Source of the DNA: Acorus gramineus
Lineage: Eukaryota > Streptophyta > Magnoliopsida > Acorales > Acoraceae
DNA: 64,000 nt
Direction: 5' to 3'
Assembly (NCBI GenBank): GCA_030737835.1
Contig: CM060849.1
Span: 4,278,001-4,342,000 of the forward strand
The notes under the pieces are model-generated. The model was not told where the DNA came from and ran no database searches. It saw only the letters and a list, made by a program, of their open reading frames with translations. Below, piece after piece: positions 1,896-49,146 of this stretch. Position numbers and translations under genes: made by a program. How positions within the stretch are numbered: position 1 is the first letter of the stretch; each line of letters starts with the position of its first letter.

Positions 1896-4867
1896 TGTTA
1901 TATATGTGTCACTTTTTAGCCTTCTGGTAACCATTGGAGCATTCTGGCAGTTTTTCAGTTTTTTTCGTTTTTCGATCGGAACTGCAAAAATTTTGGACTT
2001 TTAGCTATCACCTTGAGTTTGAGGGCTCCGATTGGAAATCTAACTGCATATTATGTGTCCTGGTGCCATTCCAAGCCACTCACAAAAATTTCATCGAATT
2101 CTGGTACGTTTCAGAATTTTGCAGTTCTGAAGCGTATCCGGGTTTTGACCGAGCGAGAAGTCATTGGGAGACTTGACTTGGTCAAATGTGGGCCCATGAC
2201 TTGGTCAACTCCTTTGTTTTCTAGTGTGGATGGGTTGACCCAAGTCAAAGTGCACTTAAACCTCACTAATCCTAGCCTAAACCTAATTAGGGCTAATCTA
2301 AGTGTGGGTGTGAGAGTGTGTGGTGGGTGTGTGAGTATAAAGAAATCCCACGACAACAATAAGGCCACTATTCATCATCTTCTCCAAAATTTCTCTCTCT
2401 CTCTCCCTCTCTTTAATCCCCCCATATGACCTAGTTCTAGTGGTGGAAATCAAAAACCCTAAGAAGAGAAAGGATAGGTAAGAACCCGATCTACCTTCCG
2501 GTGGTCTCGGATTCGAATTCCCACATGTGTGACCCCTTCTCATACCCTCTTTTCTCCTCTGTTTCAGCCCCTCTTTGGCTGAGTTGGAGATCTCGGTGGT
2601 GGTAGTCTTGGAGGCGGTGTTTCGGTGCGCGAAGAGCACCCGATCTTCCTCCCCTTTCTTTCCTCTCCTTGGGTGAGTTTCTTTTTCCTTCCTTTCTTGT
2701 TTAGATGCTTGATTAGGAGGTGTCTTTGGGTATGTATGGCTGTTGGTGGCTGTTGGTAGCTGTTGGTGGCTGTTGGTGGCCATTGGTGGCCGTCGAGGAG
2801 GTGGTAGGGTTGTCTCGGGTAGGCTGGCAGCGCAGGCAGGCAGGCGGGCTGGCAGGGCGGGCAGGGCGGGCAGAGCAGGCTGGCAGGGCACGCGCGCTTG
2901 TGCGCGGGCGTGCGCGAGCGTGCGCGCAAGTGCTGCGCAGGGGGCGCAGTACGCTGGTGGTGTGCGGGTGCTGCGCGCTGGGCGCAGTGCAAGGGCATGC
3001 ACGCGGAGCGCTGCGCAAAGGCGCAGTTCGTGCTGTGCCCGCGGGGCCGCGTGCAGGTGCTGCGCGCAGGGCGCCGTGCGGGGCGTGCGCGCGGAGCGCT
3101 GCGCAGAGGCGCAGTGCGTGCTGTGCGCACGCGGTGAGGGGAGCAGGTGGTGCGCGCGGGGTGCTGCGCTGGGGCGCAGGGCGTGCGGGTGTGCACGCGA
3201 GTTGCTGCGCTGGGGCGCAGTGAGCGCGCGGTGCACCCGGGGGGCTTGGCGGCGTATCCGGGCATGCGGGCAGGGGCTCGGCAGTGGGTCTGGGCACGCG
3301 GGCTGGGGCGCGGCTGTGCGCTTGGGGCGGGTGGCCGTGCGTACGGCTGCCCGTGGGTTCGGGTGAGTCGGGGTGCTTGGACTCGCGTGCGTACAGGCCG
3401 TATGTACGCTTGTCCGAGTGTTGGGTATTTTAGTGTATTTTTGTATATATTTGTGTATTTTACTCACCGAGTTGATTACCCTGTCTTGCAGATCTTGACG
3501 GACGGTCGCGCGACGACCCGGTTATTGGTGAGTGGGACAATCCAACCCAGTAGGGAGGCGCTATATGCACTTGGGCGTATACCGTCCTCCCATGGGGCAC
3601 CATAGTTGTGTAATGTGTAATCCATGCAAGCATGATTAATATGTAGTATGCATGCTACCCTAGAGCTTGTATGTTAGGGACTTGCACCCTTAGGATATGT
3701 GTAAGAGCCATGCATCCTGACTCCATGTTTTCATGCTAGGAAAGCCTCGACCTATGCATGCGTCCTATTAGTTTAATTTATTAAATTAAATGCAAACTTA
3801 TGGTATTTTAGCATGCCTTAGGGAATATTATAAGGGGCCTTGCGAGGTCAGCGTGAGACCCGGGCTAGGGTACTCCGTGTTCCTTGTTTGGTTGTCGGGA
3901 CATCCTATATCGGGACCTCATGGTGCCCTCCCAAGGTTCTTTTCCCGATAATATTATAATATATGTTTCCCCGCATCTTAGTTATGCGCCCTGGAGGAAT
4001 TCTGAAGAATTCATGACATTAGAGTTGATGAGAGGTGTTGCCGACGGATCCGAGTGGATCGTATGCGTATGGATAGGCTGTTTTTGTTCCCTTCGTTGGA
4101 TCCGTATAGAGACTGCCCCAGCGTTAGAAAGGCCGTCCCGTCAGAGGGCTCCCATCAGTAGGCACCTCCTGATTTGGATTCGGACTGTGCTGAAGTGTGG
4201 GAGTAGGCCAAGCGGCCTACGGAGTGGAGGAGAGACTATCGGTGGACCAAGGGTGATTAACAGCCTAGTCAGTCCCAATATCCTGTGTCACCTATTGAGG
4301 GGTGAGGGTGAGGGTGTGGTGGGTCGGCGATGTAGCGACCCACTGGATTGTGTAGTTCCTGCCACTTGAGGCTTGATTAATTATTTGTGGTTAATATGAA
4401 TTGTGATGCATGGGTTGTGCTATTCACTGAGCGTGTGGCTCACCCCTCGCATATATATTTTTCTCCAGTTATCACTGAGTCGGACTTGAAGGAGGAGCTC
4501 CCCGAGGGACTTCATCAGTAGCGGAGCAGCGCCACGTCCCGCGAGTGTTAGAGGCCATCAGCATCCTTTCTTTTGATTGTATGTATATATTTCCGTGCTT
4601 GGGCATCTGTTTGTATTATACTTGGACGTATTTGTGTATATTGGCTCTCACAAGACAGTTGATTATGTATCGAGTCTGTAATATGTTTTGATTTACAGAC
4701 TCAGTCTTTTAGCTTCCGCTATTTGTGTATATATCATGTCAGCCCTGCTTTTGTCTGTGTTGTCATTTTAACTGTTGTTTAGAGTATGTTATTGACCTCC
4801 TGTATAGATTGCTGATATCATATATACACTTGCCGCGTCCCGGGGACGGCCGCCCTGGGGCGTGACA
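1896..4867 (+). mobile_element. Solo Tekay-type LTR nested in B1 (subfamily 2)
   Basis: It starts TGTTATATATGTG and ends GGGGCGTGACA, 2972 bp. The flanks (TTTCA before, GTTTC after) do not give a clean 5-bp duplication. Along its length: a TATA box (TATAAAG, 2336), a CT-rich leader near 2392-2420, a possible donor at 2673, a GC-rich block at about 2820-3400, a possible acceptor at 3491, a module shared with the Tekay internal region (3831-3947), and a distal part with dyad repeats. Its closest relatives here are 59496-62504 and 49147-51860. No internal region or primer site follows it, so it is read as a solo LTR. Confidence 0.8.
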
Positions 4868-7366: not shown

Positions 7367-10300
7367 TGTTATGCCTGTGTCGTTGGAGCGCTCTGATTGA
7401 AAATTTGGGCTACATAATTTTTTTTCTCTAGAAGTTATGTATTCCCGATTTGGTATTTGGATTTGATTTTGTTAAAATCCAAGATGAAGAGGTTTAAATA
7501 TGATTTTATTATGAGATGTCCAGTTTTGAGTTAGCTTTCGTACAAAAGTGGAATTAGATCAACTGGATTCATGTAGAAAGAGTTATGGGTATTTTACCAA
7601 GTATACCCCGGGGATGAAAAATTCTGGCAGCAGCCCTTTTCCATGTTTAGCTCTAACTTCGGAATAGCTGAAGGGATTATTTGATCTTGGCATAAACATG
7701 AAAGTTGTAGATAATCTTCTTGGCTTTCCAACGGAATTTGAATTGTGCAATTCGGAGCTATATTGAGGAAGTTATGGCTGTTCTAGTGAAGTATGTACAG
7801 AATTTCTAGTTAAGGATGACTTAGTCATTTGATCCTTCTTTAGATATTTATGTGCCAAATAAATGTCTCTCTCTCTCTCGCTCCCTCTCTCTCCCTTCCA
7901 CTCCCCACATCAACGTGGGATTCAAGCTCTCTCTTCCTCTCTCTCAGCCCCCCAAGTGTTTGTTTTAACTCCTCAATGAGATGGAGAAGGAGATGGTGCA
8001 AGTGCATGACTAGGTTTATGCATGTATTGTTGTTGTTGATCTCCTCCTCTCTCAAGCTCCCTTTTCATGATCCTCCCCCCCTGATTTTCATCCAAGAAGG
8101 AGGCTGAGGAGGCTGAAGAGGTGGTGGTGGTGGTGGTGGTGGTTGAGGTGGCCGTGGGCGTGTCGAGAGCCCCGCACCTCCCCCCTTTCCGTTTCCCTCT
8201 TTTGGTAAATCCTCTTCCCCTTCTTTTTGATTTTTAGGGTTGTTGTGATGGTTAGGGTGTTCATGCATGCTATGCATATGAGTTAGAGTGTGTGTGAAGG
8301 GTTGGGGAGGGTTAAAAAGGGGTAAAGGAAGGATGGGGGTTGTCTGCGCACGTGCGTGCGCAGGATGGCGCTGGCAGGCGCAGGCGGGCGCGCAGACGCG
8401 CACGGGCACGTGCGTACGAGCGCGCGGGTGCGCATGGAGTGGGCCCGCGGGTGCGCGCGGGCGCTGGCTCGAGCGGGGGTGCGCGCGCGCGAGCGTGCGC
8501 GCCTGGACATGCGCCTGGGCGCGGGGCTGGGGGCCAGTGCGCGCGCGCGCGTGCGTGCGCGTGCTGGGGCATGTACGGGGTTCTGCGCGAGCGCGAAGTG
8601 CGTGAAAGGGCGCGCGGGCTGGACGCGCAGTGCGCGCGGGGGCGCGCGAGCGTGCGCGCGCGCGCAGCAGCGAGTCTGGGCGCGCGGGCAGGCGCGCAAC
8701 AGTGCGCCAAGGGTGTTGGGGGGCGTGCGTGCGTGCGTATGCGTGCGTGCGCGTCCGGGGGGCCATGCGTGTGGCTGCCCGAGGGTTCAGGTAGGTGTCG
8801 GGGCACTCAGACTCGCGTGCGTACGTGCGTGCTCGCGTGCGTACGTGCGTGCTCGCATGCGTGCGAGTCCGTATGCATGCTTGTTCGAGTATTTGGTATT
8901 TCTAGTAAATTTCATGTATATTTGTGATGTTACTCACCAAATTTGATGCCCTTACCCTGCAGATCTGGTCGGATGGGATGCGCGAGGTCCCGGGTATGGT
9001 GAGTGGTTCGATTCCAACCCCCCCCCCCCCCCCTTCTCTAGGGATGCGCTCGACGCGCGTAGACGCGCGTCGCGCATCTATGGCCCCCCCTAGCTATAAT
9101 ATGTAGATACAATGTTAATTCATGTTTTACTATGATGTAACCATGCAATATTAGACATTGTATGCTAGGGATATACATCCATGTATCATGTATAGAAGCC
9201 GTACATGCCTAAACACCATGTCCCGTACTTGAAAAGCCTTGATCTATGCATGTTTCCCATTTAGTTTAATTTAATTAAATCAAAATGAGATTATATTGGT
9301 ATAAGCATGCCTTAGAGAATATTATAACCTTGTTGTTATAATATATGTTTCCCCGCATCTTAGTTATGCGCCCTGGAGGAATTCTTGAGAATTCATGACA
9401 TTAGTAGTGTTAGAAATCGTTGTTGACGGATCCAAGAGGATCGTATCGTGTGAGTAGGCAGTTTTCTCCCCTTCGTTCTATCTGAGTAGGGACTCCCCGG
9501 CGTTGGAAAGCTGTCCTGACAGAGGGCTCCCATCTGTAGGTACCTCCGATGCGTCGGAGGGTGCTGATCATGGGAGTATACCAGGTAGAGGCTACGGAGT
9601 GAGGGAGAGGCTACCGGTGGACCAAGGGTGGAGAGCAGCCTAGTCTGTCCCAAAAGGCCCATGTCACCCCTAAAGGGTGAGGGTGAGGGTGGGGTGGGTC
9701 GGCGACGTTACGACCCCACTAGCTTATACAGTTACTCCCGTTTAGGGACTTTAAATATTTTAAGGTTAATATGAGTTGTGTTGCATAGATTGTTGTTTAT
9801 GCCAGTGTTTGATATCTTGATAAGTGATTATCGAGAGTAGTTGTTCTTTATTGGGTTCGCTTTGCGAACATGGGATCGCTCTCGCCTTCGTTGGATCCGA
9901 TGTAGGAACTTCTCGAGATTATAGTTGTCCTGACTGAGGGCTCCCATTTGTAGGTACTATTGATGCATTCGGGAGCGTACTGACCATGGGAGTATACCAG
10001 GTAGAGGCTACCCGAGAAAAGGGCTACCGGTGGACCAAGGGTGTAGAGCGGTGAGTTGAAGAGGCCCGGGTGCAGCTGTCCTGACAGAGGGCTCCCGTCT
10101 GTAGGTACCACCGACGCGTTCGGAAGCGTACTGATCGTGGGAGTATACCAGGTAGAGGCTACGCAGGGGAAAGGGCTACCGGTGGACCAAGGGTGTAGAG
10201 CAGTCTAAGTCTCTTCCAAAAGTCCCAAGAGTCTCCCTCCGGGAGTGAGGGTAAGGATGAGGTGAAGACACGTCACCTCGTGACCCATTCGTTGTTCGAC

Positions 10301-12972: not shown

Positions 12973-14484
12973 TCAAACCTTCCCATCCCGAGCCTTCTCA
13001 ACGGCCGATATCGAGAACGACGACGGCTCACACCGGAACCCATCATACCTCGTGAAAAGGTACGCCACGAAAAGGCAAGCCGTCCCGACCACGTAATCCT
13101 TCGCCGCGCACTGTTTGTTCTCCACCGAAGGCGTCCCCGTCTCCCGTCCATTGGACCAGTACAGATACTCCAAAAGCTCCCGCCCCCCTTTCGCCTCCAC
13201 GAACCGGTCGGGCACGAACCTTTCCGGGTCCTCGAACACCTTCGCGTCCCGCATCGCGAGCGGCTGGTACCCGCACAGAAGCTCCCCTTGCTTCACCTCG
13301 AAAGACGCCTCGTTCGAGCTCAGCGTGAAGTCCCGCCTCGCGCGCCCGTACTGCAGCGGCACTGGCGGGTTGAGCCGCAGGAGCTCCCGCACCGTGGACG
13401 TCACCAGCTCCATCTCCCTCACCTTCTTCAAATCCAGCACCCCATCCGTCCCCACCACCCTCCTCACCTCCTCCCTCAGCTTCTCCTGCAACCCCGTCTC
13501 GTCGCTCCCGATCGTCGTGATCAGCTTGGGGAAGAAGACCGAGAACCCGCCGAACGCGTTGAAGCCCAGCACGAACAAGATATTGTTGATCGCTTCTTCC
13601 GTGCTTAGCCCGTACTCGCTCACGGCGTTGTCCACGACGTCTTTTCCCTGCGTACGCAGGAACTCGTAGATCTTCAAGTAGTCGTTCTTGACGAGGAGGA
13701 AGGGGAGGGGGAAGGAGTGGAGGAAGATCTCCTCGAGCGGTTGCGGGATCACGCCCGTCCCCGTCGTGGGCAGGAGCTGCACCGCGAGCCACTTGTCGAG
13801 CATGGCGAACCCGTACTCGTCGATCTCCTTCACCTTCTCCGGGTCCGCCATCGCGAGTGCCTTGCAGAGGAACCTAAATATGCACCTCTGTAAAGGCACA
13901 ATGAACCCCGCCCCGCCTTTGCCGCTGACTTTCTCGAGGTCGCCTTCGATGGTCGTCCACATAGTGTCCAAGGCGTTCAAAAACTCCGACGCCCAGACTT
14001 TGGAGCTCCGCTTGAGGAGGTCCATGCAGAAGGACTTGACTTTGGTGTGCTTGGGGTCGGTGACGTCTAGGTAGACGCAGACGCGCGTGCCGCCGGTGAA
14101 GGAGAGGCTGGGCGTGTAAGGGCCGATGAGGACGTCGGTCTTGTCGACGAGGGAGCTGTCGAAGAGGGAGGCAAATGAGGCGCAGTCAACGAGCGCGACG
14201 ACTTCGGGGTTGGTGCCGACGAAGAAGGGGAAGGTTGGGGGGATGTTGGTGCGGAAGACAGTGCTTTTATGGGTGGTCGCGCGCTTGCGGAAGAAGGTGT
14301 CCGCGCCTTGGAACCAGAAGTAGTCGAGGCGGTCGCGGAGGGGGCCGAGGAGGGGGGGGCCGTAGGTGCCCGGGATGGGCTTTAGGGGAAGGACTGCGGG
14401 TGGTGGAATTGGGGATGTGGGGGTTCTTGGGGTGGCGGAGGAGGTTGACATGATGAATCTCGCGCTCATCATTGTTGAGGCCAT
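12973..14484 (-). CDS. HPL: Fatty-acid 13-hydroperoxide lyase (CYP74B-like)
   Basis: Plastid-associated P450 that needs neither O2 nor a reductase. In the known family it splits 13-hydroperoxy-linolenic or -linoleic acid into C6 aldehydes (green-leaf volatiles) and a C12 oxo-acid. The 503-residue frame is full length. A Ser/Thr/Pro-rich N-terminus of about 35 residues without acidic residues looks like a transit peptide. Visible motifs: helix-I LGFNAFGGF (306-314) with the family's catalytic Asn309, ExxR (E367, R370), NPPVP (372-376), ELLCGYQPL (401-409) and heme loop NKQCAAKD (456-463) with Cys459. LVDKTDVLIG, LKRSSKVW and the helix-I run favour lyase over allene oxide synthase. The first ATG has a good context (AAAATGGCC). 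Odd point: the loop reads SNGRETG where most CYP74s have Pro after NG. Codon third positions are GC-rich, unlike the AT-rich flanks. It is the only intact host gene seen. Confidence 0.9.
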   Translation of the reverse strand: MASTMMSARFIMSTSSATPRTPTSPIPPPAVLPLKPIPGTYGPPLLGPLRDRLDYFWFQGADTFFRKRATTHKSTVFRTNIPPTFPFFVGTNPEVVALVDCASFASLFDSSLVDKTDVLIGPYTPSLSFTGGTRVCVYLDVTDPKHTKVKSFCMDLLKRSSKVWASEFLNALDTMWTTIEGDLEKVSGKGGAGFIVPLQRCIFRFLCKALAMADPEKVKEIDEYGFAMLDKWLAVQLLPTTGTGVIPQPLEEIFLHSFPLPFLLVKNDYLKIYEFLRTQGKDVVDNAVSEYGLSTEEAINNILFVLGFNAFGGFSVFFPKLITTIGSDETGLQEKLREEVRRVVGTDGVLDLKKVREMELVTSTVRELLRLNPPVPLQYGRARRDFTLSSNEASFEVKQGELLCGYQPLAMRDAKVFEDPERFVPDRFVEAKGGRELLEYLYWSNGRETGTPSVENKQCAAKDYVVGTACLFVAYLFTRYDGFRCEPSSFSISAVEKARDGKV

Positions 14485-14787
14485 TTTTTTTTATGTTGTT
14501 GAGATTTTTTTTTTTTTGTTGTTGGATTTGTTGTAGAGGGAAATGGAGAGTGGTGTTTTGGAACGAGTGATTCAGATTGGGGATGATGAAGTGTTGGTGC
14601 AAGATGTAAGGATGGTTTTTTGTCTTATTTTTTTGGGGGAAATTTGATTTCTAGCAATTTTTGGAATTTCCTTGGGAAGTGCAGATTGTGCCACGTTTAA
14701 GATGCGCCGAGGTACATCATCGTTTTCATATCAATAAAATAAAATCACGTGCCCACGTATGCTATACTGTTTTTTTTATTTTTTTTA
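14485..14787 (-). promoter_or_regulatory. Upstream region of the lyase gene with G-box
   Basis: A perfect G-box CACGTG lies at 14746-14751, about 260 bases before the ATG. A second ACGT core (ACGTGGC on the minus strand) is at 14690-14696. In plants such elements bind bZIP and MYC-type bHLH factors and are common in wound- and jasmonate-responsive promoters, which would suit this enzyme. The leader is rich in A and CAA. No clear TATA box. The fold-back repeat begins right behind, so the unique promoter is only about 300 bp. Confidence 0.5.
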
Positions 14788-24066: not shown

Positions 24067-27000
24067 TGTCACGCCCCAGGCGTCCCCGAGACGTGGCAAA
24101 ATAAAATATAATATCAGCTATCAATACCTGAGGTCAATAAGGACACCAACAACAATACACAAGGTGACAAAGCAAGATAATGATAACTGACTGAAAAGCG
24201 GAAGCATAATATATAACAATCTCTGTAAATCAAAAACATTATTACAGACCCGAATACACAATCAATGTCCTGTGAAAGCCAAGTCTAGACCAAAGAAAAT
24301 ACAACCTGTGCCACATGCACGATTTACAAAGCATAAAATGACTCTAGGAATGCTGACAGCCTCGCACACGCCACCCGCAGGCAGAATGCTCCACGCCCAT
24401 AAGACCACGCCACAGGAAGCTCCAGCTCCACGCCCAACACTGCCCCTGAAAAGAAACAGTATGCGAGGGGTGAGCTACAAGCTCAGTGAGTGGCTGGAAA
24501 CCAATCACCATTCTACAGTTCAATACATAAACAATTCCCTTTTTCAAGGAAAAACATGGGTAGAAACCCAATGGATAACTGGGTCACGCGGCGGCGCAAC
24601 CAACCTCACCCCCACCCTCACTCCCGAAGGGAGTCTTTTGGGACTTATGGGGAGAGACCATACCGTCGGTCGAAGAGACCCGGATTTACTGGTCTAGAGA
24701 CCATGCCGTCGGTCGAAGAGACCCGGATTTACTGGTCAAGAGACCATACCGTCGGTCGAAGAGACCCGGATTTACTGGTCTAGAGACCATGCCGTCGGTC
24801 GAAGAGACTCGGATTTACTGGTCTACTCAACACTACTGGATCATCTACATCTAGATAATCGCCCATCGATGTCCTTCAACATCCATCACGAGACTGGACC
24901 CAACATCTATGGGAACGGTCAAACAACGAATGGGTTCACGAGGCGACGCGTCTTCGCCTCATCCACACCCTCACTCCTGAAAGGAGACATTTTGGGACTT
25001 TGGCAGAGACTTAGACTGCTCTACACCCCTGGTCCACCGGTAGCCTCTCCCCGCTCCGTAGCTTACCTGGTATACTCCCACGATCAGCACTGTCCGAACA
25101 CATCGGAGGTACCTACAGATGGGAGCCCTCTGTCAAGATAGCCTGTCTAACGCCGGGGCTGTACTACACGGATCTAACGAAGGGGAGAACGATTCCCACG
25201 CCCGTAACATCATTCGTTAACCCTCTCCCGGGTAGTATCTACAACCCGATCTTTTAAAATCAGCCTCTCCCACCCTCGTGGCCTTCGCCTAGTCCTCTGA
25301 CAGGTATAGCCAACGCCGGGGAGAACGATCCCATGTTCGCAAAGCGAAACCCAATGGAAAACAACCACTCTCGATACTCGCTTATCGAGATATCACACAC
25401 ATGCATAACAACAACCAACACACTCATATTAACCTTAAAGTAGTCATAGTCCCTAAACGGGAGTAACTACACAATCCAGTGGGTCGTTACATCGCCGACC
25501 CACCACACCCTCACCCTCACCCTCGAAGGGGTGACATGGTCTTTTGGGACTGACTAGGCTGTTAATCACCCTTGGTCCACCAGTAGCCTCTCCCCGCTTC
25601 GTAGCTTACCTGGTATACTCCCATGATCAGCACTGTCCGAACACATCGGAGGTACCTACAGATGGGAGCCCTCTGTCAGGACAGCCTATCTAACGCCGGG
25701 GCTGTACTACACGGATCCAACGAAGGGAAGAGAACAGCCACCCACACGCATGCGATCCTCTTAGATCCGTCGACAACGCTTCTTAACATTTCTAATGACA
25801 TGAATTCTCAAGAATTCCACCAGGGCGTATAACCAAGATGCGGGGAAACATATATTTATAACCACAAGGTTATAATATTCTCTAACGCATGCTAACAACA
25901 GTATAATCACATAATCCCATCTTGATTTAAATAAATTAAACTGAATGGGAAACATGCATAGGTCGAGGCTTTCTTAGCATGAAAACATGGTATCAGGATG
26001 CATAGGCCTCTATCCTCAACATTAGGGTACATATCCCTAGCATACAAGTCTAAGGTGGCATGGATACATCATATTGATCATGCATAGATCAAGGCTTTTA
26101 AGTACAGGACATGGTGTCCAGGCATGTACGGGCCTCTATACACGATACATGGATGTATATCCCTAGCATGCAAATTTCTACATATTAGTAAGGGGGCCCC
26201 ATCGATGCGCGACGAGCGTCTACGCGGGTCGAGCGCATCCCTAGAGAGGGGGGGGATTGGAATCAAACCACTCACCTTATGACCCGGGACCTCGCGCATC
26301 CCATCCGACGAGATCTGCAAGGTAGGGGCATCCAACTGGTGAGAAACAACACAATTTACACAAAGAAATCATTAGAAATACCCCATACCCGGACAAGCAT
26401 GCATACGGGCTCGCACGCATGCGAGCACGCACGTACGCACGCGAGTCCGAGTGCCCCGACACCTACCCAAACCCTTGGGCAGCCACACGCATGGCCCCCC
26501 GCACGCGCAGGCACAAATGCGCACGCACGCCCGCACCCCAACACCATCGGCGCACTGTCGCGCGCCTGCCCGCACGCCCAGACGCGCTGCCGCACGCGCG
26601 TGCATGCTCGCGTCCGCCCGCGCGCACTGTGCGTCCAGCCCGCGCACCTCGCGCAGCACCCCGCGCACGCCCCAGCACGTGCACGCACGCGCACACACGC
26701 GCGCGCGCGCACTGGTCCCCAGCCCAGAGCCCAGGCGCCTGCCCGCACGCGCGCACGCTCGCACCCCCACCTGCGCCTGCACCCGCGCGCACGCGCACGC
26801 TCCCGCGCGCGTCTGCGCGCCCGACTGGGCCTGCCAGCGCCCGCCTGCGCGCGCGCACGCGCGCAGACTTCGCCCAGCGCGCGCCCAGCCCATCCTAACC
26901 TCTTTTTAACCCTTCCCAACCCCTCACACACACCCTAACACATCTAGCTAACATGCATGACTTTCCCACAACCCCTTAAGCCATAAAAACCAAGAAAAGA

Positions 27001-31730: not shown

Positions 31731-34700
31731 TGTCATGCCCCAGGGCGGCCGTCCCCGAGACGTGGCAATAATGAAATATCAGCTATTAATACCTGAGGTC
31801 AATAAAGACTCCAACAACAACACACAAGGTGGCAAAGCAAGGATAATGATAACTGACTGAGAAGCGGAAGCATAATATATAAACAATGTCTATAAAAAAA
31901 AACATTATTACAGACTCGAATACACAATCACTGTCCTGTGAGAGCCAAGTCTAGACCAAATAAAATACAACCTGTGCCACATGCACGATTTACAATACAT
32001 AAAATGACTTTAGGACTGCTGACAGCCTCGCACTCGCCACCCGTCGGAAGAACGCTCCACACCCATAAGACCACGCCACAGGGAAGCTCCAGCACCACGC
32101 CCAACACTGTCTCTGAAAAGAAACAGTATGCGAGGGGTGAGCTACAAGCTCAGTGAGTGGCTGGAAACCAATCACCATACAACAGTCAAAAACTCAAACA
32201 ATTTCCTCTCAAGGAAAACATGGGTAGAAACTCATGGATAACAGGGTCACGCAGTGGCACGACCAACCTCACCCTCACTCCCGGAGGAAGACTCTTGGGA
32301 CTTTTGGGGAGAGACCATACCGTTGGTCGAAGAGACGCGGAATTACTGGTCCACACAACACTACTGAATCACCAACCTCACTCTCACCCTCACTCCTGGA
32401 GGGAGACTCTTGGGTCTCTTGGGGAGAGACCATACCATTGGTCGACGAGACCTACAATTACAGGTCTACACAATGCTACAGAAACATCTACATCGGGATA
32501 ACTACCCAACGATGTCTTTGAACATCGATACGCAACCGGACCCAACAACTATGGGAATGGACGAACAACGAATGGGTCACGCGGCGACGTGTCTTCACCT
32601 CATCCTCACCCTCACCCTTTAGAGGTGATATAGTACTTTTGGAAGAGACTTAGACTGCTCTACACCCTTGGTCCACCGGTAGCCCTTTCCCCGGGTAGTC
32701 ACTACCTGGTATACTCCCACGATCAGTACGCTTCCAAACGCCTCGGTGGTACCTACGGATGGGAGCCCTCTGTCAGGACAGCTTTTCCAATGCCGGGAAG
32801 TTCCTACATCGGATCCAACGAAGGGGAGAACGATTCCACGCTTGCAATATCATTCGTTAACCCTCTCCCAGGTAGCCTCTACCTGGTACACTCCCACGAT
32901 CAGTACGCTTTCGAACGCATCGGTGGTACCTACGGATGGGAGCCCTCTGTCAGGACAGCTACAACCCGGGCCTCTTCAACTCGGACGACATTGGGAGTAA
33001 ACATTCCATGTTTGCAAAGCGAACCCAATGGAAAAACAACTACTCTCGATAATCACATATCGATGATATCGAACACTATTGTACTCCCACACGGTTGCGT
33101 CGCTCGGACACAAAAGGGGGGGGGGGGTTGCCTCTGCTCTCACGCAGAAATAATCCCAAGGCACATAACCCAACAGGCGGTTCATATACACGCCTAGCAC
33201 GGGTAGGCCTAGCTTAATGCCACAACTACCGGCTTAACAAAACCGATAAGATAACGAATTCTCCTGAATTCCAAATGAGTGCATCGCTCGGATGCACGGG
33301 GGCGATTACATCGCTAGCGCTCTAACTAATAAGGTACAACCCGACAACGGGTCATACCCACGCCTATTCCAGATAGGCCTAATCAGTTTTAACATGCGCA
33401 TAATTATTACAGAAGAATTCTATCACTGAAGGAACTTGATCCACATGTACAATAACCTATGCTTAAATATAAGGGTTCTCCCTAACATGGGTAGATGGCA
33501 TAAACAACACATCATGCAACATACATACAAGGCAAGGCCTAACTACACATACATATGAGGGCACTAATCGTATAAACATACAAAATATACTCTAACATGC
33601 GTTGGATATCACCAACTTAAAAGAAAGGGTCAAGCGCGATCTCACACACTAACAGGTGCATGCCAATATTCCAAACGAACCTGAGTTGAGTAGGAAATCG
33701 CATCTACTTACTCAGTTCGTTCAGAGGGAGAGGGCGAGAGAGATCATCATCTCATGAAGCTGGTCATAGCTTTGCCCCATTAGCATGGGCGCAACAACTA
33801 CACCACGCCCTCGAGTCTTATCGCAAGGGAATATTAGGCAGGTGCCTATTATTAACCCAGACTTAATCATACTGGATATTCCAATTAATATGGTGGGAGT
33901 AGTATTACAATACTACCTAAGGCAGGCCATATTCTATACATCCATACACATTACAAAAATACATACCCATACTAGAGGGGCGCATGCAACACAATCATTC
34001 ATACATGGATACAATACATGTATATAAGCCTAGTATGCAAGATATCTAACATATTATAGTTTAAGCATGGCCATACTACTTATCTACACAAGTAGTATAG
34101 CTAGGGGGCCCCATCGATGCGCGACGCACGACTACGTGCGTCGAGCGCATCTCGAGGGGGGGGATTGGATCAAACCACTCACCGCAACCCAAGACCTCGC
34201 ACATCTCATCCGACGAGATCTGCATGGTAAGGGCATCAAATTTGGTGAGTAACATCACATTATAACACTTAGAAATTACTAGAAATGCCTAAGACTTAGA
34301 CATGCACGCATACGGGCTCGCACGCATGCTCGCACGCGCATATGCACGCATGCCCAAGTGCCCCAGCACCTACCTGAGACCCTGGGCAGCCCCGCGCATG
34401 CCCCAGCACGCGCACGCACGCGCGCGCGCGCACTGGCACCCAGCCGCGCTCCCAGACCCGCCTAGACAACCTGCCCTGCGCGCGCGCGCGCGGACTCAGA
34501 TTCGTTGCCAGCGTCCAGGCGCACCCGCGCGCCTCCCTCTGCTACCCCTACGCACGCCCAGCCATTCTTAACCCCTTTTTAACCCCTTTTAACCCCTCCT
34601 ACACACTTCTCACTCACCCTAAACCTATTACCTAGCATGCATGACCTCCCAACTACCCCCTAAGCCATGAAAACCAAGAAAAGAAGGGGAAGAGCTCACC

Positions 34701-37508: not shown

Positions 37509-38483
37509 TCAGGTCGAGATCAGACGTGCGAGATTTTCTTCGTTGATCCGTGGCTCAAAGTTCTCGGTCTGAAATGTCAGGATCCCAAGCTCTATGGGGA
37601 TTACGGCCTCGACGCCAAAAGCCAAGGAAAAGGGAGTCTTCCCTGTGGCCCTTCGCGCTGTGGTGCGGTAAGCCCATAACACTGAGGGAAGATCGTTCAC
37701 CCAGTTGCCTATGGCCGCGTTGAGCCATTTCTTGATCCCGTCAAGGATGGTATGATTGGTGATTTCTGCCTGACCATTTCCTTGGGGGTAGAGCGGAGAG
37801 GAGAAAAGGTGCTTTATGCCCAACTCCTCGCAGAACTCCCTCATGGTGGCATTATCGAATTGTGTCCCATTGTTGGAGATTATGGTGTTCGGCACTCTGA
37901 ATCGACACACGATCTCCTTCCAAAGGAAACTTCGTACTTCGAGGTCGCGAATTCTGGCTTGGGCCACAGCCCCCACCCACTTGGTGAAATAGTCAGTGGC
38001 GACTAGGAGGAATCCCTTCTGGGATGGCGCCAAAGGCATGGGCCCGACTATATCCAATCCCCATTGAAAGAATGGCCAGGGACTTGATAATGAATTTAAA
38101 TCCCCAGCTGGTCGGTGAATTAGGGGACCGAATCGTTGGCACTTGTCGCATTTCCTCACCAGGTCGAGCGAGTCCTTTGCAAGGGTTGGCCAGAAGAACC
38201 CGGCTGTCAACGCGTGCCTCGCCAAGGATCTCGAGGCCGTGTGGCATCCACACACCCCCGAATGCATTTCTTCTAATACTTCTTTAGCTTCTTCGGGATT
38301 AACACACCTGAGGAGAGGGCCTTGAAAGCTTTGCTTATACAATACGCCCTTATCAGTGATCAAGAACCGAGCGGATCGGCTCTTGATTTTCCTGGCCTCT
38401 TCCTTCTCTGTTGGGAGGAAGTCATCTTTCAAGTAAGACAGAACAGGGTCCATCCAGGTCGGTTCACGGGTTGTTGACTCCAC
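37509..38483 (-). pseudogene. Tat A integrase
   Basis: A 324-residue open stretch. A zinc-binding HHCC-type N-terminal part is visible (HTASRSLARHA, CDKCQRF), then the catalytic core with WGLDIVGPMPLAPSQKGF and FSSPLYPQGNGQAE, and the WAYRTTARRATGKTPFSLAF run that follows the core in plant Ty3/gypsy integrases. No chromodomain is seen, as expected for the Tat lineage. It belongs to a broken polyprotein and lies directly 3' of the second RNase H. Confidence 0.85.
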
Positions 38484-39120
38484 TGCTATAACCTGTTTGA
38501 GACGGGGTTATGCTTGGCTCCCTCAAGAATTTGACCTGAATCTCCCGGGATGGTTCTCCCTCCAGCGTACTTGCCAGATTTGCTAGAGCGTCAGCATGAG
38601 TATTCCGCTCGCGATCGATTGCGTGGATTTCCCACTCACTGATTCGTTCAAGCAAAGTACGGGTGTAGCCCTGATAAGCCGCCATTCGGTCATCCTTCGT
38701 CTGATATTCTCCAGTGCTCTGACAAACCACGAGCTGGGAATCGCTGTAGATCACCAATTTATGGACGGCGAGATCTACGGCGAATTCCAAGCCTGCGATG
38801 AGTGCCTCGTACTTGGCTTCGTTGTTAGAAGCGTTGAATCCTAGTTTGATTGCGTGTTCAAACAGGAAACCGTCTTCATTGCGTAGGATCATCCCTGCTC
38901 CTGCCCCTTTTCGGTTGGACGCCCCATCGACATGGAGTGTCCAGGAAATTGGCCTGCAATCGGAGATTAAACAGACCTGCTGCTGGGCAGGTGTAAGGTC
39001 GGCGATGATGTCTGCGACGACCTGTCCTTTAATTGCACTCTTGGGCTGATAGTGGATATCAAAAGCTGAGAGCTCCACCGCCCATTTGAGCAATCGTCCT
39101 ACGACATCCGCCTTTCGCAA
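38464..39120 (-). pseudogene. Tat A archaeal-like RNase H (second RNase H)
   Basis: Motifs in order: WTLHVDGASNRKGAGAG, NNEAKYEALIAGLEFA, IYSDSQLVV and NTHADALANLAS. These are the Asp, Glu, Asp and Asp boxes of the type-I RNase H acquired by the Tat/Ogre lineage in addition to the usual retroviral-type domain. It lies between the first RNase H and integrase. Its presence is the strongest lineage marker in the element. Confidence 0.88.
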
Positions 39121-39186
39121 TACAGCCTTAAGCGGTGAGTCGGTGATGACATGGATCGTATGGGCATGGAAGTAATGGCACAGTTT

Positions 39187-40214
39187 TCAGGCGGAAACGA
39201 GCAAGGCAAACGCAAGCTTTTCGATGCGGGAATACCTGGTCTTTGCCCTGCTGAGCGCCTTACTTGCATAGTAGATTGCCCTCTGCCCTTGGTTGATATC
39301 CTTCAATAGCGCGGAGCTAACAGCGTGCTCGGAGGCTGCAATGTAGAGGAGCAAAGTGTCTCCTAAGGAAGGACATACCAGAAGTGGCGGCCTGCTGAGG
39401 TACTTTTTGATTTCTTTAAATGCCCTCTGACACTCTACGTTCATTTGAATTTGTGAGCCTTTCGCAGCAACTGAAAGAATGGCTGGCATCGATCAGTGGC
39501 CCTAGAGATGAATCGATTGAGAGCGGCCAACCTCCCCGCCAGCTTTTGCACCTCCTTTTTGTTCCGTGGGGGCTCCATATCCAATATCGCTTTGATTTGG
39601 TCAGGGTTGGCTTCGATTCCTCGCTGAGTCGTCAGGTACCCCAGAAACTTGCCTGAGGTGACTCCGAAGGAGCATTTTGTCGCGTTTAGTTTGAGGCGGT
39701 ACTTATGCAGCACAGCGAAGATTTCTTCCATGTGGGCCAAGTGGTCAACTCGGCGCTCACTTTTTACCATCATGTCGTCGATGTAAACCTCAACAGTCTT
39801 ACCGATCTGATGTTGGAAGATTTTAGTCACCAACCTCTGATAAGTGGCCCCTGCGTTCTTTAACCCGAACGACATCACTTTATAGCAGTAAATGCCCGTA
39901 GGGGTTATGAACGCTGTCCTCTCCTGGTCGGGCTCGTGCATTGGGATTTGGTGGTAGCCTGAATAAGCATCCATAAAACTCATTAGTTCATTACCCGATG
40001 AGGAGTCCACCAGTTGGTCGATCTTCAGAAGTGGGAAGCTGTCCTTCGGACAGGCGCTGTTCAGGTCGGTGAAGTCCACGCAGACCCGCCACTTCTTGTT
40101 CTTCTTTGGAACCACCACAGTGTTGGCCAGCCACTCGGGGTGTTGCACTTCTCGTATGAACCCTGCCGCCACACCTTGTCCCGCACCGCCTCGGCGTGTG
40201 TGGTGGCCATTCAT
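39187..40214 (-). pseudogene. Tat A reverse transcriptase and first RNase H
   Basis: Reverse transcriptase motifs: WRVCVDFTDLNSACPKDSFP, MDAYSGYHQIPM, KNAGATYQRLV and the catalytic box YIDDMMVKS, then FLGYLTTQRGIEANP. The retroviral-type RNase H follows (VSSALLKDINQGQRAIYYAS, SRAKTRYSRIEKLAFAL). NSACPKDSFPL and YIDDMMVKS are typical of the Tat/Athila side of plant Ty3/gypsy. Broken, in more than one frame. Confidence 0.88.
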
Positions 40215-40795
40215 CGCTGCTTCTGTCGGACTGGATGGATGATCGGTGATATGGACAGCCGATGGCTTGCCACATCAGGATCAATTCCCGACATGTCTTG
40301 AGGCTTCCAGGCGAAGATGTCCCTGTTCTCGATGAGGAGGTCGAGTATCACCTTTCTCTCTTCTGCGGAGAGTAAACTCCCGACGAGAAAGTATTTCTCA
40401 GGGTCGAAGGGGTCTATTGGGACCTTCTCGAGGTCTTCAAGGACCCTGTCTTCAGGATCGGATTGGCGTTCATCGGCCTTGACTCGGTTCTGCAGTAATT
40501 GCTACCTTTTTAGATGAATTTCTCCGTCCTCAGGCTACTCCTTGAAGTCTAGTAGGGCCGACTTCCCTGCCATCGCCGCCATGTAGCACCGCTTTGCGAC
40601 AACTTGGTCTCCTCGAATCTCCATTATCCCCTCGGCTGTGGGAAACGAAGCCGTTGATGGTACGTAGACGGAATCGCCTTCATCGCCGCTAGCCAAGTGC
40701 GTCCGATGATGGCATTGTATGGAGACGGGAGGTCCATGATAATGAACTCCGTCATAGTGGTCCGATTCGCTGCTCGAACCGGCAGTGTGATTCGT

Positions 40796-41080
40796 CTAGC
40801 GGGGACGACTCGTGGGAGTGAGGTCAGCGGCTTTTAACCCCATCTGAAGAAAGGGTTTTATGAAGAGGATGTCGGCCGAGCTTCCTGTATCAACGAGAAT
40901 TCTCTTAACGTCAAAATTAGAGATACGCAGGGTGATTACCAGGGCGTTCGAGTGCGGGGCTTGGACTCCTTCCAGGTCGGCGTCAGAGAAAGTGATGGCT
41001 CCTTCATCACCGCTTCTTTGTCTTTTCACGACCATCTTTGGCTCCTGGTCGATGTCCATCATTTCGAAGGAGACCAGCAT
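40796..41080 (-). pseudogene. Tat A aspartic protease
   Basis: The retropepsin box VDTGSSADILF is preceded by VKRILV and followed by FLQMGLKAADL, the usual context in plant Ty3/gypsy elements. It lies between gag and reverse transcriptase. The stretch 40215-40795 links it to reverse transcriptase and shows no separate domain. Confidence 0.85.
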
Positions 41081-41110
41081 GGTCTTCGAGTCTAGACAGG
41101 CACTTTTTGG

Positions 41111-42757
41111 CTAGATATAATGCGGTACGCCTCCAAAAATGACATCAATGACCCCTGCCGATGTATTAGGGCCAATGTTCGTCACATGCCGCTCACCGAA
41201 AGCTGGGGGTTTCTCAACAGGACCATATTCCTTTAAGCGTCCCTTTCGGAACTGGGTCTCCAAGAAGCCCCAGAGTATTCGGCATTGATCGGTAGTATGG
41301 CCCACACTCTTGTGGTAGTCGCAGCGTAGAGCTTGGTCCTGTTTGATCTGTCGCTCCTCATGGGTGCAGGCCATCAGAACCACGGCTCCCTCTGGATTTT
41401 TGACAGGATCTGTGACGGAGGAACCTTGAAGAACATCCCCTGTCCTTCTCGTACCTCATTTGTTGAGGCACCAAGCTTCTTGACCTTCTCGCTCTGCTGG
41501 TCCTTCTTATGCAGCTCCTGCGGACGTTTGACTATGTGACGGGGCTGCAACCGTTGGTGGAGACCGGGACGTAGCCATCGCCTGCTTAAGAGTCCTCGAT
41601 TCTTCTTCCACCTTGGCGTACTTTTCAGCACGCCCCATTAAATCACGCAAGTCGTATGGGGTACGCTTGATAAGAGACTCCTTGAGGCCGTTTTCGGACA
41701 GCAGGCCGTTCCGGAAAGCCATTATTGCTACATCCTCATTGCAGTCTTTCACTTTGAATTTAAGGATGCGGAAGCGATCGACAAACTGTCGAATCGTCTC
41801 TCCTGATAGCATCTGGATCTTCATGAGATCGTCGAGGTCCTTCTTCCTCCGCCGACTACAGATGAAGTGCTCAGCGAACATAGTGTCGAGCTCCTCGAAA
41901 GTTCTGATCGTTGCACGGGGAAGGAGATGGAACCATGTCAAAGAGGCCTCTTCCATGTTAGAAGGGAAGAGGCGGCACATAAGCCCATCATAGAGCTCAT
42001 ACAAGGCCATCGAATGTTAGAATGTCAAGATGTGATCATAGGGATCCGTCGTGCCATTGTACATCTTGAATTTGGGCTGGACGAACTTCCGGGGAAGTCG
42101 TTCCCTGAGAATCTCTGTGCAAAACGGGGAGGCGAATCCCCGTATTGCATGCTCCACCATTTCACGATTCAGAACGCGCCATACCTCGGAGCGAAAAGCG
42201 TAACACGGCTCCTCGACCGCTTCCCCAGCTCGAGGGCGGGGTGGGGAATCATACCGATGCCCCTCCAAAACCTCACGTAAGATCGATCGCCCCTGGTGCG
42301 TTTGCCTCCGAGAGGCCTCCTGTCCCGCAAAGCGTTCTCCATGAGGTGAGCGCCCACGCCTTTGTCCTTTGTGGGGCCGTCGATCCGCTCGAGGGGTGCA
42401 CGAGCGCCGACGAGACCGCTACCTTTGATTGGAGGAAGAGGTACTTCCTTCCGAACCTTCAGCGTTGATGGTAGGGGGGTTGGGCCTTACAGGAGGTGGC
42501 GGCCTGATTTCTTCCTGGACTGGTTGTTGTCGATCCACGTTCGTATAGAACTGTTGCATCGAGGCTTCGATCATCTACTGCATTGACTCTTGCAGACGAA
42601 TAAATAGAGTTTCCTGCGTTGACTCCATTACCCGCCTGAGGCCCTGGACTTGACTAGCCAAGGTTTCCGAGGAGCCGTCGGCAGCATCAGATGGGAGAAC
42701 ATCTTGTTCCTGTCGTCCTCCTACATTAGTGTCACTCGGACCTGACATTGCAGACAC
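41111..42757 (-). pseudogene. Tat A gag
   Basis: The capsid-type Retrotrans_gag domain is clear at 41507-42010: LFPSNMEEASLTWFHLLP, FEELDTMFAEHFICS and IRQFVDRFRILKFKVKDC. The N-terminal part (from about 42757) begins MSAMSGPSDTNVGGRQEQD and has a short coiled-coil-like stretch; a weaker frame lies at 42017-42268. Toward the 3' end, CDYHKSVGHTTDQC (41111-41383) resembles the single zinc knuckle of Tat gags. It is the first gene after the primer site. Broken, with several breaks. Confidence 0.8.
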
Positions 42758-47627: not shown

Positions 47628-47960
47628 GTGCTCGAGGGCGTGCTTGGCGTTGTCCGATGCGTGCGGAGTGCGTGGGCAGCGTGCACGGAGTGCTCGAGGG
47701 CGTGCTTGGCGTTGTCCGATGCATGCGGAGTGTGTGGGCAGCGTGCACGGAGTGCTCGAGGGTGTGCTTGGCGTTGTCCGATGCATGCGGAGTGCGTGGG
47801 CAGTGTGCACGGAGTGCTCGAGGGCGTGCTTGGCGTTGTCCGATGCATGCGGAGTGCGTGGGCAGCGTGCACGAGGTGCTCGAGGGTGTGCTTGGCGTTC
47901 GCCGATGCGTACGGAGTGCGTGGGCCGCGTGCACGTGGTGCTCGGGGGGCGTGCTTGCAG
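47628..47960. repeat. 62-bp minisatellite inside LTR
   Basis: Five units of 62 bp starting GTGCTCGAGGGCGTGCTTGG, then a partial sixth at 47938. Units differ at few sites. 62 is not a multiple of three, which explains overlapping open frames in all phases; none is a gene. Confidence 0.92.
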
Positions 47961-49146
47961 TATTCGGACTTGTTCAGGGTGTGTTTCGGGGTATTGAGCA
48001 CCTTGTTATAGCCCAATCCAAACCATTGGTCAATTTCGAGATTGGATGATTCTTGGCGGATTGGTATCAAGCTTCGGATTCAATTTTTTTCGCCCTCTTG
48101 TGTTTCACGAGCCGTGCGCTCGTTAGGTGAGTGGTTTGATCCAATCCCCCCCCCTCAGGATGCGCTCGACGCGCGTAGTCGCGCGTCGCGCATCGATGGG
48201 GCATCTTAGCTATACTACTTGTGTAGATAAGTAGTATGGCCATGCTTAAGCTATAATATGTTAGATATCTTGCATGCTAGGCTTATATACATGTATTGTA
48301 TCCATGTATGAATGATTGTGTTGCATGCGCCCCTCTAGTATGGGCATATATTTTTGAAATGTGTATGGATGTATAGAATATGGCATGCCTTAGGTAGTAT
48401 TGTAATACTACTCCCACCATATTAATTGGAATATCGAACATGATTAAGTCTGGGTTAATAACGGGCACCTGCCTAATATTCCCTTGCGATAAGACTCGAG
48501 GGCGTGGTGTAGTTGTTGCGCCCATGATAATGGGGCAAAGCTATGACCAGCTTCATGAGATGATGATCTCTCTCGCCCTCTCCCTCTGAATGAACTGAGT
48601 AAGTAGATGCGATTTCCTACTCGACTCAGGTTCGTTTGGAATATTGGCATGCACCTGTTAGTGCGCGAGATCGCGCTTGACCCTTTCTTTTAAGTTGGCG
48701 ATATCCAACGCACGCTTAAATTAGGCCTTGTGTGCTTATGTGACTAATGACCATGTATGCATGTTGTATGATTTATTATGATGTAAATCCATGTTAGGGA
48801 GTGTCCCTATAATTATTAGATGATTGTGCATATGGTTCATGCACATAGCTAGATATAAAATTCTCTTGGATATATATATATATATGCCCATGTTAAAAAT
48901 GATAGGCCTATATGAAATAGGCGTGGGTATGACCCGCTGTCGGGTTGTACCTTATTAGTTAGAGCGCTAGCGATGTAATCGCCCCGTGCACTCGTTTGGA
49001 ATTCAGGAGAATTCATCATCTTATCAGTTTTGTTAAGCCGGTAGTTGGGGCATTAAGCTAGGCCTACCCGTGCTAGGCGTGTATATGAACCGCCTGTTGG
49101 ATTATGTGCCTTGGGATTATTTCTGCGTGAGAGCAGAGGCAACCCC

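Follow-up and report, generated by a model that had tools for sequence, protein, structure and literature searches.

Splice-site-like elements conserved within the long terminal repeats of a gypsy-type retrotransposon family from Acorus gramineus suggest a non-coding intron cassette

Can the long terminal repeat (LTR) of a plant retrotransposon carry introns of its own? The question is raised by a stretch of 64,000 nucleotides of Acorus gramineus DNA (contig CM060849.1 of assembly GCA_030737835.1, positions 4,278,001 to 4,342,000; hereafter the window), in which an earlier note had pointed to a GT...AG pair recurring inside LTRs that it called Tekay. From the sequence features described below, we consider it probable that the LTRs of this gypsy-type family bear a non-coding spliced cassette, with two predicted introns and a microexon.

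The LTR family and its first donor/acceptor pair

Self-comparison of the window and inspection of the ends revealed eleven LTRs or LTR pieces of a single family (L1 to L11, Table 1). As expected of LTR retrotransposons, all but the cut copies and L7, which starts with TA, have TG...CA termini, a purine tract (PPT) precedes L3 and L6, and 5-bp target duplications accompany L5 (CGTGC), L8 (CACAT), L9 (ACCCC) and L11 (GCTAT), which look like solo LTRs. L7 and L6 are the paired LTRs of one element with the duplication GTAAC; no clean duplication was found around L2 or L10. Two elements still have an interior here (L1-L3 and L7-L6), and each retains only about 2.7 kb of it. A few bases past the L1 and L7 LTRs lies TTGGTATCAGAGCC, which we take to be a primer-binding site for initiator tRNA-Met. 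Such a site is linked to the Tekay clade, but is common to other clades too. A search with one 152-aa open reading frame (ORF) from the interior recognized no Pfam family. The Tekay label is provisional: its basis is the general layout plus the primer-binding site, and no clade-diagnostic domain was found.

The seven GT...AG pairs listed in the earlier note were recovered with exact coordinates, with the motifs described and with lengths of 480-825 bases. A whole-LTR alignment placed all seven donors in one column (D1) and all seven acceptors in another (A1), bearing out the claim that their positions match. The note had also described an eighth LTR with a split pair, and in L6 the nested L5, with its CGTGC flanks, does separate donor from acceptor. 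D1 is kept in nine of the ten LTRs covering its column, including one donor beyond those of the note, in the cut LTR L4; A1 is kept in eight of nine. L8, absent from the note, has neither site. With L8 left out, D1 is fixed at bases -1, +1, +2 and +4, varies within R at +3 and within Y at +6, and is free at -2 and -3, while L3 is the sole copy departing at +5. The varying length had been offered as a sign of an intron; its range was confirmed, but it is weak evidence because the interior of intron 1 is a GC-rich low-complexity tract. An LTR-borne intron is the best-supported reading of this pair, and the case is stronger than the note had made it, since a second pair is aligned as well and a microexon and branch-point-like motifs accompany the sites. 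A promoter-like motif near the LTR end would, on a rival reading, place the pair in U3.

Two copies appear to be mosaics. L10 resembles L5 up to donor 1 (0.825) and L2 after acceptor 1 (0.89), and L8 starts L5/L3-like (0.76) and is L7-like from GGTGAGTGG onward (0.92-0.95), as if the splice-like sites or their vicinity had been points of module exchange. L8 also holds a GC-rich tandem array (47628-48001) where other copies have the GC-rich interior of intron 1.

Table 1. Positions, within the window, of the LTR copies and of the features predicted in them.
Feature	Copy	Position	Strand	Remark
LTR	L1	window start to 1651	+	
LTR	L2	1896-4867	+	
LTR	L3	7367-10458	+	cut
LTR	L4	11351..10459	-	cut
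LTR	L5	27838..24067	-	
LTR	L6	29055..20031	-	contains L5
LTR	L7	35457..31731	-	
LTR	L8	46602-53141	+	contains L9
LTR	L9	49147-51860	+	
LTR	L10	55881-58827	+	
LTR	L11	59496-62504	+	
TATAAA	L2	2336..2341	+	337 nt before donor 1
Intron 1	L2	2673..3491	+	GTGAGT...TTGCAG
Intron 1	L3	8205..8962	+	
Donor 1 only	L4	10620	-	
Intron 1	L5	26315..27015	-	
Intron 1	L6	23967..28279	-	541 nt without nested L5
Intron 1	L7	34220..34699	-	
Intron 1	L9	49941..50618	+	
Intron 1	L10	56693..57396	+	
Intron 1	L11	60275..61099	+	
Microexon, 36 nt	L2	3492..3527	+	
Microexon, 36 nt	L3	8963..8998	+	donor 2 at 8999; acceptor 2 lost through truncation
Microexon, 39 nt	L5	26276..26314	-	
Microexon, 37 nt	L6	23930..23966	-	
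Microexon, 37 nt	L7	34183..34219	-	
Microexon, 36 nt	L9	50619..50654	+	
Microexon, 36 nt	L10	57397..57432	+	
Microexon, 36 nt	L11	61100..61135	+	
Invariant 16-mer, T/C tract, acceptor 2	L1	1241..1270	+	
Intron 2	L2	3528..4468	+	GTGAGTGG...TCTCCAG
Intron 2	L5	24446..26275	-	
Intron 2	L6	20410..23929	-	3520 nt
Intron 2	L7	32113..34182	-	
Donor 2 and acceptor 2 only	L8	48127..52759	+	1919 nt without nested L9
Intron 2	L9	50655..51462	+	
Intron 2	L10	57433..58437	+	
Intron 2	L11	61136..62106	+	
Hairpin just inside intron 2	L7	34108..34155	-	counterparts in the other eight covering LTRs
Inverted repeat TGAGC-N5-GCTCA		1231-1245, 4428-4442	+	by eye; has counterparts
Inverted repeat TGAGC-N5-GCTCA		32138-32152	-	by eye; has counterparts

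A second pair, a microexon and branch-point-like motifs

Further 3' than D1 and A1 lies a second donor/acceptor pair that the earlier note had overlooked. Its donor (D2), GTGAGTGG, is invariant in nine of nine LTRs, L8 included, and sits 36-39 nt past A1 in all eight copies that have A1 (36 nt in five, 37 in two and 39 in one). Its acceptor (A2), present in each of the nine LTRs that reach the end, is an AG with a T/C tract before it, and the invariant 16-mer GCTCACCCCTCGCATA stands ahead of that tract. From the order D1-A1-D2-A2, the arrangement reads as two introns around a microexon. Donor- and acceptor-like words upstream of D1 (AGGTAAGA...TTTCAG) were dropped, as they lie outside the conserved columns. 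The 16-mer also matched four IMG/VR contigs, which were taken as chance: among the five best matches, likeness to the window extended over an exact stretch of at most 18 bases or 28 bases at 89%, none below E 0.02.

Every alignment column was scored with approximate plant splice matrices, made of round numbers, and a column was counted if at least seven copies covered it and at least 75% of them were donor- or acceptor-like. On the sense strand 2 of 2473 columns passed as donors, namely D1 and D2 (means of 6.0 and 7.0 bits; D2 reaches at least 4 bits in seven of nine copies), and 4 of 2466 passed as acceptors, A1 and A2 among them. A2 and a column reading TTACAG averaged 10.3 bits each, A1 3.6 and the fourth column 3.5, the low value for A1 arising because L8 pulls its score down. 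Scores on the antisense strand were weaker, with three donor-like columns (4.0-5.2) and one acceptor-like column (4.6). The TTACAG word (TTATAG in L7) is found 222-230 nt past A2 in nine of nine LTRs (for example at 4698 and, on the minus strand, at 24223); it lacks a conserved donor to pair with, is not needed by the cassette proposed below, and may serve D2 as an alternative acceptor.

As expected of U2-type introns, GT donors and AG acceptors thus occur at matching places in related copies. Among the copies in the window, column conservation in the core exceeds that of the flanks at all four sites (D1, 0.90 versus 0.77; A1, 1.00 versus 0.82; D2, 1.00 versus 0.78; A2, 0.96 versus 0.80). The words are kept while the sequence just outside them varies freely, as in the bases that follow A2 (GGGCA, TTATC, AGTCA, TGCTG).

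Plant branch points follow the pattern YTNAY, 18-40 nt before the AG. In the alignment, judged by eye and with no chance level computed, CTCAC stands about 25 nt upstream of A1 in seven of eight copies and of A2 in nine of nine; we take this word to fit the plant consensus, and its spacing falls within that range. Overlapping the CTCAC before A2, we noticed by eye an inverted repeat, TGAGC-N5-GCTCA, one arm of which is mismatched in L1 and L6; it could hide the branch site and so lower splicing.

Plant introns tend to be more U-rich than the flanking exons, a tendency rather than an absolute rule (excerpts of PMC3735527), and neither predicted intron follows it. The T content of intron 1 is 0.21-0.24, against 0.28-0.32 in exon 1, and that of intron 2 is 0.28-0.34, against 0.35-0.38 in exon 3. 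Intron 1 has a GC content of 59-68% and is T-rich at its ends only.

A coding role for the spliced LTR was considered and rejected. Seven copies were spliced in silico (each of L1, L3, L4 and L8 is missing at least one exon and was excluded), and no ORF was common to the subfamilies. A 120-aa ORF spans both predicted junctions in L5 only, and L6 and L7, the LTRs of one element, have similar ORFs of 60 and 68 aa spanning junction 2. Since the microexon is 36, 37 or 39 nt long, the reading frame is not kept. Processed copies were sought with 19 predicted junction 20-mers from the same seven copies, none of which matched the window with fewer than four mismatches.

RNA structure, promoter position and chance as alternative explanations

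It is possible that the blocks are conserved for RNA structure, packaging or protein binding and resemble splice sites only incidentally; GGTGAG and CTCACC, being reverse complements, could pair with one another, and two of the three antisense donor-like columns are simply the CTCACC motifs read in reverse complement. A hairpin does lie about 25-45 nt into intron 2 in all nine copies covering the region, and its stability exceeds that of shuffled sequences in seven of them, all but L5 and L6 (z at or below -1.9). When the structure of L7 was applied to the sequence alignment, 81.5% of 135 cells could pair and the covariation score was 0.298, each value being matched by 1 of 500 shuffles, and slid versions of the structure scored less. 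Of the 15 pairs, 4 had changed on both sides, which 154 of 500 shuffles equalled, and 136 of 500 shuffles showed as many pair types. These data suggest that the hairpin is a kept RNA (or DNA) structure. Folding of eight wider stretches gave no consistent picture, z values ranging between -3.2 and +1.0 (the stretch intended for L6 lay too far 3'), and Rfam yielded 0 matches within the window at the gathering score. The 16-mer before A2 is also longer than a branch point needs. Against a purely structural role stand the order donor-acceptor-donor-acceptor, the T/C tract before each AG and the scarcity of sequence shared between the subfamilies just past the AG of A2, all features of splice sites. 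We regard this explanation as unlikely.

Whether the introns would lie in the 5' leader depends on where transcription starts. The earlier note had reported a TATA box about 330 bases upstream of the donor in two copies. TATAAA is indeed found 337 nt before D1 in L2 and L11, but these are only two of the nine donor-bearing copies. L3, L5 and L10 have different A/T-rich words resembling a TATA box between positions -335 and -360, which brings the total to five of nine, and none was seen at a similar distance in L4, L6, L7 or L9. By eye, a CT-rich stretch follows these words. Nine of nine LTRs also have a second TATA-like word, TATATATTAT or TATATATCAT, at a distance of 133-151 nt from their end, and this word may be the main or a second promoter. 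Were it the real promoter, some 140 nt short of the LTR end, the two predicted introns would fall within U3 and be absent from the 5' leader; they would then act as introns only where the element RNA has its 3' untranslated part, or be used when transcription runs into an LTR from upstream. The LTR end is also the best conserved part examined, with 62 of 98 flank columns invariant around TTACAG. The motif, on the other hand, does not occupy one aligned position across the two subfamilies, as judged by eye, and a promoter at the LTR end would leave unexplained both the correctly ordered, conserved donors and acceptors and a modest contrast in ATG content. Composition-corrected ATG values are 0.55-1.05 in the predicted exons and 1.37-2.20 in the introns of all seven complete copies. 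In a rotation control, contrasts at least as large arose in from 9 of 740 rotations (L9) to 311 of 1090 (L7), and CAT, usually less contrasted than ATG, shares part of the effect, most in L9 (27 of 740); depletion of ATG from the predicted exons is thus only suggestive. We judge it distinctly improbable that the real promoter lies near the LTR end. Downstream, AATAAT occurs about 203 nt past A2 in five of nine copies; no poly(A) signal common to all copies was found, as none of the words searched for is present in the other four.

Chance was assessed by permuting the matrix positions 1000 times, with any column allowed. With all copies, the best donor score was equalled in 80 of 1000 permutations and the second-best in 32, and as many conserved donor columns were obtained in 430 and acceptor columns in 99. 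The second-best acceptor score was never equalled (0 of 1000), a result that supports A2 and TTACAG rather than the A1 of the earlier note. Because the copies are related, L2 and L11 being close, as are L4, L6 and L7, the analysis was repeated with one copy per lineage (L2, L9, L10, L5, L3 and L7, six in all). D1 as best donor was then equalled in 49 of 1000, D1 and D2 jointly in 3, the best two acceptors (TTACAG and A2) in 0 and A1 as third in 14. With only L8 removed, the corresponding figures were 72, 11, 0 and 18 of 1000, and five donor columns passed the 75% rule instead of two, D1 and D2 still ranking first. Single sites are therefore moderate evidence and the set is stronger; as a set, the sites exceed chance. 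That ordinary shared ancestry of the LTRs preserved a few GT and AG words, the rest being selection by eye, is very unlikely, for although the count of donor-like columns is unremarkable (two sense against three antisense), the scores are unusual and the eight bases of D2 are invariant among copies whose overall identity falls to 47%.

A predicted splicing cassette and its counterparts in known systems

In the cassette that we favour, transcription would start within the first quarter of the LTR, and a donor resembling GTRAGY would mark the end of exon 1, of about 300 nt. The first intron (480-825 nt) would close with a T/C tract and CAG and be followed by the microexon; intron 2, from GTGAGTGG to a TTTTCAG or TCTCCAG acceptor, would span 0.8-2.1 kb, or 3.5 kb in one copy; and exon 3 (379-399 nt) would extend to the LTR end, adjoining the primer-binding site. 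The spliced RNA could serve as a messenger or as a short LTR transcript, while the heritable genomic RNA would stay unspliced. It would have to, because the ends of the RNA are the template for new LTRs, and prior splicing would delete the introns. An LTR intron reaches both ends of a new insertion only if genomic RNA escapes splicing, and the element would therefore need to separate messenger from genome. A fuller version, which we put forward tentatively and hold to be doubtful, is that each LTR is a complete three-exon non-coding transcription unit, running from a promoter through both introns and the microexon to a terminal exon with a poly(A) region. The use of its splice sites, tuned by the hairpin beside D2, would select between spliced messenger or short LTR RNA and the unspliced heritable genome, making it a plant counterpart of the foamy virus switch that works with whole introns inside the repeat.

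In foamy virus, the LTR itself contains the major splice donor, which precedes the poly(A) signal and is accompanied by local RNA structure that presumably switches use of the donor between the 5' and 3' LTR; the virus thereby chooses between poly(A) at its two LTRs (PMC3694450). The likeness, an LTR-internal donor with local structure, is one of working and not of kinship; the virus, as described there, has a donor only, whereas complete pairs, giving two introns and a microexon, are predicted for the LTRs of this plant retrotransposon. In BARE1 of barley, also an LTR element, one RNA pool is spliced and another unspliced, the LTR has two TATA boxes, and the genomic RNA is argued to remain unspliced, but the 104-nt intron is at the end of gag, outside the LTR (passages of PMC3735527). 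Ogre and EVADE are likewise plant LTR elements whose intron must persist in genomic RNA; their introns, in contrast, affect the coding region (excerpts of PMC6317226 and PMC12786077). Sunflower Tyran and Varan produce a short isoform through two spliced introns, but the isoforms code for GAG, and excerpts of PMC7730604 mention no LTR intron and report an expressed set without Tekay. Within the open-licence literature searched, no intron inside a plant LTR was described, including in the available passages of PMC6317226, PMC3735527, PMC12786077, PMC7730604, PMC12844716 and PMC3694450; searches aimed at introns within LTRs of any kind brought up only an engineered lentiviral vector and work on conjugation and retrotransposition. 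Plant LTR elements are generally intronless, apart from exceptions such as Ogre and EVADE, according to excerpts of a recent review (PMC12786077), and the cassette, if real, would add leader splicing to their strategies. Such LTRs would also scatter ready-made splice sites through the plant genome, affecting chimeric transcripts and gene annotation.

Two other features were observed in the window. On the minus strand, 37512-42016 is a remnant of another gypsy-type element that does not belong to the LTR family; it retains gag, RT, RNase H and integrase domains and appears Tat-like, by eye only. Also on the minus strand, 12973-14490 is an intact-looking single-exon ORF of 505 aa that matches CYP74A, an allene oxide synthase (E 4e-115 to the PDB sequence 2rcm), a host gene amid the repeats.
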